Positions 7,572 through 34,260 of a stretch of 36,851 nt of DNA are shown here, one piece after another. Within the stretch, counting starts at the first letter, position 1; the number at the start of each line of letters is the position of its first letter. This DNA comes from an uncultured Lachnospiraceae bacterium. GTDB taxonomy: Bacteria; Bacillota; Clostridia; Lachnospirales; Lachnospiraceae. The notes beneath the pieces were generated by a model. It did not search any database, was not told the DNA's origin, and saw only the letters and a program-made list of their open reading frames with translations. Position numbers and translations under genes: made by a program. The stretch lies in NCBI GenBank assembly GCA_947170415.1, contig CAMVTN010000008.1, positions 1-36,851 on the forward strand. Direction: 5' to 3'.

Positions 7572-7608
7572 CCTTTGCTCCTATATACCTATGATGTAAA
7601 GTGCCTGT

Positions 7609-8327: not shown

Positions 8328-8349
8328 TACTTATCTTTTTACTTTTTTC

Positions 8350-8506
8350 GATAACACGAATTGCTTCGCTGCTATTGCAGCTCCCGCAATTCTAAAACAC
8401 TCGCATTCCGCGTAATTACGCTACATGCTCGTGTTTTTGCGGGTTCCAAATAAAAAATCCTTTTTGTGCAAGCACAATCGGATTTTTTACTTTGAACCCT
8501 GTTATC
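8350..8506 (-). repeat. Structured 157-bp repeat element, copy 1
   Basis: Minus-strand GATAACAGGGTTCAAAGTAAAAAATCCG...GCAATTCGTGTTATC; near-identical architecture to plus-strand 31944-32100; starts 1 nt after the mgtE stop codon. Confidence 0.9.
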
Positions 8507-8507
8507 A

Positions 8508-24622: not shown

Positions 24623-25026
24623 CCTGAATAATTCACGTTCTTTCGGATTATCCGCATAGTTACTGCCTTGAGAACGCATATTAATTTCACCCAGCAGGTG
24701 AAAATATTGAGGGTATTTTAAAAGTCTCAATTCTGTTAAAATTTAGGTGTCGAATCCAAACATTTAACAAAAAGAGACTTTATATGCATAGTTTAGATTA
24801 TAAAACCCTCGAAAGCAATAAGCGATTTAAAATTAATTTTGGTGACAGTGATAATCTGATGCAGGTCATGTATCAGATCATTGCTGCTTATAATGAGGAT
24901 AACTGCGCTGATGAGCTCTCAAAAGAACCATTATTCACCGCCATCTTAGAGAAGGAACGCCTTGTTCAAAAAAATGATTATTAATTTGATTATTTGCAGT
25001 GGTCGGGTTGTCATGAATAATTCAGG
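24623..25026 (+). mobile_element. Decayed/internally deleted IS1380-like element
   Basis: Imperfect terminal inverted repeat CCTGAATAATTCACG / CATGAATAATTCAGG, flanked on both sides by TTAA, enclosing a 66-aa ORF resembling an IS1380 transposase N-terminus. Confidence 0.6.
24784..24984 (+). pseudogene. Truncated IS1380-family transposase N-terminal fragment
   Basis: MQVMYQIIAAYNEDNCADELSKEPLFTAILEKERLVQ resembles the IS1380 N-terminal pattern (..AGYEDxNDADELRxDPLF..); ends abruptly at 66 aa. Confidence 0.6.
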
Positions 25027-25072
25027 TTAATTTGATTATTTGCACTGGTCAGGTTGTCATGAATAATTCAGG
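24981..25072. repeat. Tandem duplication of a 46-bp unit (2 copies)
   Basis: 24981-25026 and 25027-25072, TTAATTTGATTATTTGCASTGGTCRGGTTGTCATGAATAATTCAGG, two differences. Confidence 0.9.
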
Positions 25073-31504: not shown

Positions 31505-31875
31505 AATAATCTCCTCTATAAGCACAAGTTTAAATCTTTAAAGCTAGTATAGCATAATATCACTGTTTTTAAAGTATCTTTAATAAGTTTTCTTAAAAAG
31601 TATGTTTTTTAATTTTATCAGCAACTTTCAGAAGGCTTACATGCAAATATTTCCTGCCCACGGTCAATTTGTAAACATTTAACAACACATTGTTTATATT
31701 GGCAAGTTGAAAAATTCTCGATAAATAGATAATTTTGACTATAGCAATTTTAAAGTTTCTTAAATATGTTGTGCAATATTTTTAATATTTTGCGTATTTT
31801 TAATTTATTATATTGCACTTTGCCTAATTGTATGATAAAGTGAACACAGTTGAATGAATTGCCACCTGAGACGAG

Positions 31876-31936
31876 AGAACATGGCGACCCGAAGCAGTTT
31901 TTCTAAACTGCCCTAAGTGTATTGCTATGTTCTTTT
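31876..31936 (+). promoter_or_regulatory. Candidate structured leader / antitermination target upstream of glpP
   Basis: AGAACATGGC (31876-31885) pairs with GCTATGTTCT (31924-31933), enclosing hairpin GCAGTTT-TTCT-AAACTGC (31894-31911), followed by U-rich TTTTATTAT. Confidence 0.5.
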
Positions 31937-31943
31937 ATTATGC

Positions 31944-32100
31944 GATGACAAGGGGCAAAAGTAAAAAATCCGCTTGTGCCTGCACATGAAGGATTTTTTA
32001 TTTGGGCCCCGCAAAACACGAGCATGCAGCGTAATTACGCGAAATGCGAGTGTTTTAGAATTGCGTGAGCTTCGTAAGAAGCGTAGCAATTCGTGTCATC
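31944..32100 (+). repeat. Structured 157-bp repeat element, copy 2
   Basis: GATGACAAGGGGCAAAAGTAAAAAATCCG...GCAATTCGTGTCATC; equals copy 1 (8350-8506 minus) with compensatory differences. Confidence 0.9.
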
Positions 32101-32147
32101 TTCAAGGCAAGGGACAAAATCAAAAAATTGTACATTAGGAGTCGCGC

Positions 32148-34260
<2,113 letters not shown>

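Follow-up and report, generated by a model that had tools for sequence, protein, structure and literature searches.

The element upstream of glpP in a Lachnospiraceae genome is a copy of RF01699, the body of a MITE with two populations of copies

The element that precedes glpP in the window (the whole stretch of 36,851 nucleotides analysed here) belongs to a known RNA family, Rfam RF01699 "Clostridiales-1", and this clade carries RF01699 as the inner portion of a ~190-bp non-autonomous MITE. Copies of this MITE form two populations, one of them carrying both terminal repeats and the other devoid of the 3′ terminal inverted repeat (TIR). The family has been described before; its nature as a MITE with two populations is apparently new. 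At roughly two chances in three, we consider that this MITE seeds structured 5′ leaders, some of which are retained and act in cis on the mRNA.

Identity and fold of the element

In the initial annotation, the two copies of the element present in the window were not recognised as any known riboswitch or named repeat. This no longer holds, as both match RF01699 over model positions 1-166 (E 4e-25 for copy 2, before glpP, and E 1e-29 for copy 1) and score above its curated gathering cut-off of 48 bits (Table 1). The ends of copy 2 (159 bp) were set by the Rfam model, and complementarity between the two copies is 83-86% in two blocks. The predicted RNA fold of copy 2 has an energy of -74.6 kcal/mol, far beyond chance when compared with its shuffles (-39.6 +/- 3.4), and this MFE fold reproduces the four-stem consensus structure of RF01699. 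All the stems named in the initial annotation are present (the closing stem GATGACA/TGTCATC, P2, P3 with its GA/GA internal loop, and P4) and, as claimed there, the differences between the two window copies in the closing stem, the base of P2 and the inner stem of P4 are paired changes.

RF01699 appears in Weinberg et al. (2010; PMC2864571) as a table entry, scored as probably RNA, not cis-regulatory, and found in Clostridiales and human gut; the main text of that work does not call it transposable, and a literature search on RF01699 found no later work. Both window copies resemble the published family in their full-length match, their arms and their Clostridia host, while the features described below (terminal repeats, duplicated targets and empty sites) lie partly outside the Rfam model.

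Table 1. Positions of the two RF01699 copies, their parts and neighbouring features in the window
Feature	Positions	Strand	Evidence
Empty site just upstream of lepA; the orthologous position in NK4A144 holds a full 190-bp element with 7-bp duplication TAAGTAT	7575..7595	-	
RF01699 copy 1; starts at the stop codon of mgtE, on the strand of mgtE and lepA	8349..8507	-	cmscan 130 bits
Separate stem-loop 5′ of RF01699 copy 2, probable GlpP-type leader	31873..31936	+	fold z -4.3; 16/16 congeners
RF01699 Clostridiales-1 copy 2, full length (model 1-166)	31943..32101	+	cmscan 112.9 bits, E 4.1e-25; fold z -10.4
P1 5′ strand, also MITE 5′ terminal-repeat region (GATGACAAGGGGCAAAAG)	31944..31950	+	fold; comparison with intact elements
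P2 arm; loop CCTG in copy 2, family consensus G(CTTG)C	31952..32010	+	
P3 arm with GA/GA internal loop, cap GCGTAATTACGC	32013..32056	+	
P4 arm	32058..32092	+	
P1 3′ strand	32094..32100	+	
Probable decayed 3′ hairpin/terminal repeat (CAAGGCAAGGGACAAAATC..., intact form GTAAGGGGCAAAATTTACTTTTGACCCTTACATC)	32101..32136	+	judged by eye
glpP (G3P_antiterm, PF04309, E 1e-62), followed by glpK and glpF	32148..32726	+	

Architecture and mobility of the MITE

Full copies start with GATGNCAGGGTCAAAAG and end with CTTTTGACCCNNACATC. When copies are read with their flanks, RF01699 is followed by ~34 bp ending in CTTTTGACCCTTACATC, which is the inverted repeat of the element's own 5′ end, GATGTCAGGGTCAAAAG; the terminal inverted repeats are ~16 bp long, and in the element's own genome the terminal repeat occurs 79 times, against a single occurrence of the reversed control. 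Perfect direct repeats of 7 or 8 bp are found on both sides of 30 of the 49 full-length elements, compared with a match at >=5 bp in 1.7% of flank pairs shuffled at random, and in a wider set of copies with both ends, 76 of 99 are flanked by exact target duplications of >=6 bp. Additionally, for four filled sites the matching empty site was identified in a related strain. For instance, gtattgatat[190 bp]ttgatataatc corresponds to GTATTGATATAATC, and gacaggtattgatat[190 bp]ttgatataatcggg in the own genome corresponds to GACAGGTATTGATATAATCGGG in NK4A144. It is because of these terminal repeats, target duplications and filled/empty pairs that RF01699 is identified as the body of a MITE. The duplicated target is AT-rich, with the consensus WTWWTAT; this resembles a -10 box, but there is no -35 enrichment at 16-18 nt and promoter targeting was discarded.

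The same architecture is present in other genera with other terminal-repeat variants, and there are forms of 36, 69, ~190, 344 and 399 bp, all of them short, with duplications, and without coding capacity or transposase. The 36-bp form consists of the terminal repeats only (L044:1481-1516) and the 69-bp form retains only P2 (L337:3345-3413), each with perfect 7-bp duplications, and they are possibly among the smallest mobile units. Deletion forms that keep both ends were also observed (L018, L019). The forms of 344-399 bp contain a second MITE, with GTTACTGTTCA/TGAACAGTAAC ends, nested in RF01699. This second structured MITE was seen in L190:377-721, where it has its own 8-bp duplication, ACGGATTG, and in L012:1502-1900, L129, L151 and L153, and it has no convincing Rfam match.

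No autonomous transposon with shared terminal repeats was found in the selected genomes, in which two transposase families (PF01797 and PF01609) and pairs of TIRs were checked. The own genome has no Y1/RAYT transposase (PF01797), and the DDE_Tnp_1 (PF01609) transposases of relatives do not share the terminal repeats, with one genome (G362) having none though terminal repeats abound in it. TIR pairs 0.8-3 kb apart (G394 C17, L118) proved to be separate short elements around ordinary genes, and the TIR beside a transposase in G032 belongs to a neighbouring short element. A run of terminal repeats on a single strand of G362, seen among the matches listed, was discarded, as more reverse matches were counted than listed.

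Among bacterial MITEs, Correia/NEMIS, ERIC, RUP and YPAL have been reviewed by Delihas (PMC2229807), and NEMIS and ERIC have been reported to act on co-transcribed mRNAs, the latter in an orientation-dependent manner (PMC2229807). The RF01699 MITE is similar to the reviewed elements in being non-coding and shorter than 200 bp and in having TIRs, target duplications and long paired transcripts (PMC2229807). By contrast, it lacks the 5′-TA-3′ termini of Correia, ERIC and RUP, as its ends are GATG...CATC, and it differs from the reviewed MITEs in its 7-8 bp duplications, its presence in many genera of one order, and its multi-arm junction with conserved loops, theirs being one long hairpin. YPAL also lacks TA termini and its mobility was likewise observed by comparison of filled and empty sites, although its inverted repeats lie inside the element and its duplications range from 3 to 26 bp (PMC2229807).

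The element is not confined to the two window copies, and many more are found in its genome and in relatives. In the own genome (2.3 Mb, 76% complete), RF01699 has 31 matches, 18 of them above the cut-off. Order-wide, 119 of 392 genomes have a match, and a single genus can span copy numbers from 0 to at least 38. In a pattern scan of named species genomes, matches were found only in rumen-type Lachnospiraceae (NK4A144, MC2017, KH1P17, KH1T2), while viral contigs had no match to the RF01699 core and 15 chance-like TIR matches without the element. Tandem arrays of two to four copies occur in some leaders (L233, L234, with 159-nt spacing, L201, L073 and L284). In two genera (G032 and G416), a nearly identical element with nearly identical flanks stands before related Pfam-less genes (L319 and L282), which suggests horizontal transfer or strong conservation.

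Two populations of copies

Young copies are neutral: they mutate freely and decay without compensation. In a recent subfamily of 63 near-identical copies, 24 of which are identical, the 110 paired sites have accumulated 30 distinct changes and the 47 unpaired sites 11. No change at a paired site has a compensating partner, and A-C arises as frequently as G-U (6 vs 5). Copies with both terminal repeats are inserted either way, with the upstream gene in sense in 40 of 91 cases, the downstream gene in 56 of 89, and 29 '++' vs 24 '--' arrangements.

Copies without the 3′ TIR, by contrast, are nearly always in sense with the downstream gene (68 of 78), with 47 '++' and 4 '--' among the best-scoring copies; counted per genome, 42 lean sense and 4 antisense. 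The difference between the two classes is significant for both the '++'/'--' arrangements (Fisher p 1.6e-5) and the downstream gene (p 3.6e-4), in a census that used the best-scoring copies and genes predicted as open reading frames. These copies have no target duplications and show near-perfect pairing. The Pfam families downstream of them are diverse, but genes of core translation, transcription or ATP-synthase type follow 12 of 40, vs 1 of 30 copies with TIRs (p 0.005, which is post hoc, as the category was chosen after inspection). Their products include PheS, IleS, LysS, RplK, RpoB, an S1 protein, MetK, ATP synthase beta, V-ATPase D, SHMT, RimP and peptidyl-tRNA hydrolase. It had been anticipated that co-orientation with genes would indicate an RNA, and random orientation a mobile palindromic element. 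Both outcomes are observed, as copies with TIRs are mobile and randomly oriented and copies without the 3′ TIR are strongly co-oriented with the downstream gene.

RNA or DNA structure

The covariation called for by the initial annotation is overwhelming: in 111 distinct sequences, 54 of 55 pairs have changed on both sides, and the covariation score is 0.546, vs 0.163 in shuffled and less than 0.085 in slid controls. Conservation across the family extends to the tandem or internal-loop purines and to the G(CTTG)C loop. Such constraint might nevertheless come from a purely selfish DNA element with no RNA function, its palindromic arms being kept for DNA hairpins or cruciforms in transposition or replication, or by recombination between copies, and its sense bias being due to purging of antisense copies. 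Indeed, the orientation bias could reflect the loss of harmful antisense insertions and not use, and the neutral decay of new copies fits a selfish element as well.

The pairs themselves speak on both sides. All four Watson-Crick types are found at many of them, and G-U accounts for 2.2-2.6% of the standard pairs of RF01699, compared with 4.4-9.7% in TPP riboswitches (same order, same pipeline); both observations favour DNA, and the scarcity of G-U is odd for an RNA under selection, so that the DNA-hairpin explanation stays plausible. However, G-U exceeds A-C (89 vs 35 genome-by-pair cells, mostly at three pairs), a mild sense-strand polarity that speaks against a DNA-only element. The loops are similarly divided, as that of P4 is usually C(GNA)G, a motif that is very stable in DNA minihairpins, while that of P2 (GCTTGC in 131 of 163) is G(CTTG)C, a classic RNA tetraloop.

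Between orthologous leader copies of different species there are 12-17 double changes but 0-1 one-sided changes, and in one pair (L251/L277) the 5′ flank is identical. For these reasons, replacement of elements by recombination between copies may be the source of the differences between orthologues, which would suit a selfish element, although very strict selection on pairing may also explain double changes without intermediates. On the other hand, mobility does not require the multi-arm body, given that the 36-bp form with only TIRs and the 69-bp form with only P2 have moved too, leaving exact duplications, and the P1 stems of immobile copies are copy-specific yet complementary. Taking these observations together, we regard a purely selfish DNA element as a serious but rather unlikely explanation.

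Possible role of the retained copies

The MITE is moved by a transposase making AT-rich 7-8 bp target duplications, and its fresh copies settle in intergenic DNA in both orientations, where they accumulate changes freely. In the reading that we prefer, in which the MITE seeds cis-acting leaders, copies without the 3′ TIR would be insertions that became part of the 5′ leader of a gene and were retained. As leaders, they may provide a rigid multi-arm RNA that acts in cis on the 5′ stability, the processing or the ribosome-site shielding of the mRNA, with no metabolite sensing. For the old population, such a role in cis is the guess with the best support. A broader proposal would be that the MITE carries a ready-made multi-arm RNA domain with which it repeatedly supplies core genes as their 5′ leader, with sense insertions kept, terminal repeats lost and the structure constrained, and with the transposon as the dispersal vehicle across the order; this is a tentative idea that we think somewhat doubtful.

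An independent gene for a trans-acting small RNA, in agreement with the Rfam type of RF01699 (Gene; sRNA) and with its score as non-cis-regulatory in the table of Weinberg et al. (PMC2864571), is improbable given the tens of copies per genome, their patchy presence within a genus (0 to at least 38), the many identical mobile copies, the co-orientation with genes, and the lack of a -35 signal at fixed spacing upstream of the copies.

The glp locus

The copy before glpP is in sense, 46 nt 5′ of the gene, with no intact 3′ TIR within 50 bp and no target duplication, and would be a member of the retained class. A separate stem-loop lies upstream of it (GAGAGAACATGGCGA...GCTATGTTCTTTT), ending in a T run and preceded by a GAGACGAGAG box; it has no Rfam match, is conserved ahead of glpP in each of the 16 congeners whose upstream sequence could be read, and is probably a GlpP-dependent terminator/antiterminator leader. 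The RF01699 core, by contrast, is absent before glpP in all 16 congeners examined. The two closest relatives (G013 and G030, GlpP 97% identical) share both flanks and lack the core, which argues against the initial description of the element as a glpP leader. Since these close relatives do without it, any effect of the glpP copy must be dispensable, and the copy is an old insertion that does not serve as the operon's regulatory leader. A ~20-nt remnant resembling the 5′ terminal repeat (CAACAACAGGGGCAAAAGC) is found in both relatives, and their site was therefore rejected as a pristine empty site, loss by deletion being just as probable as absence. A riboswitch or dedicated leader for glycerol genes, to which the sense position before glpP and the complex fold might point, is extremely improbable in view of the absence of the core in these congeners and of the lack of a common pathway among the genes downstream of the copies. 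Elsewhere in the window, positions 24981-25072 hold two head-to-tail 46-bp direct repeats that are 96% identical.

Implications

These results supply a mechanism of spread for an unexplained Rfam family in rumen and gut Lachnospiraceae genomes, and they are a warning that a transposable element can be behind the covariation of a multi-copy 'sRNA' family. Recent neutral insertions and old sense-oriented leaders within the same genomes constitute a natural experiment, and the bacterial domestication of MITE RNA as leaders of rpoB, rplK, metK, ATP-synthase and tRNA-synthetase operons becomes testable.
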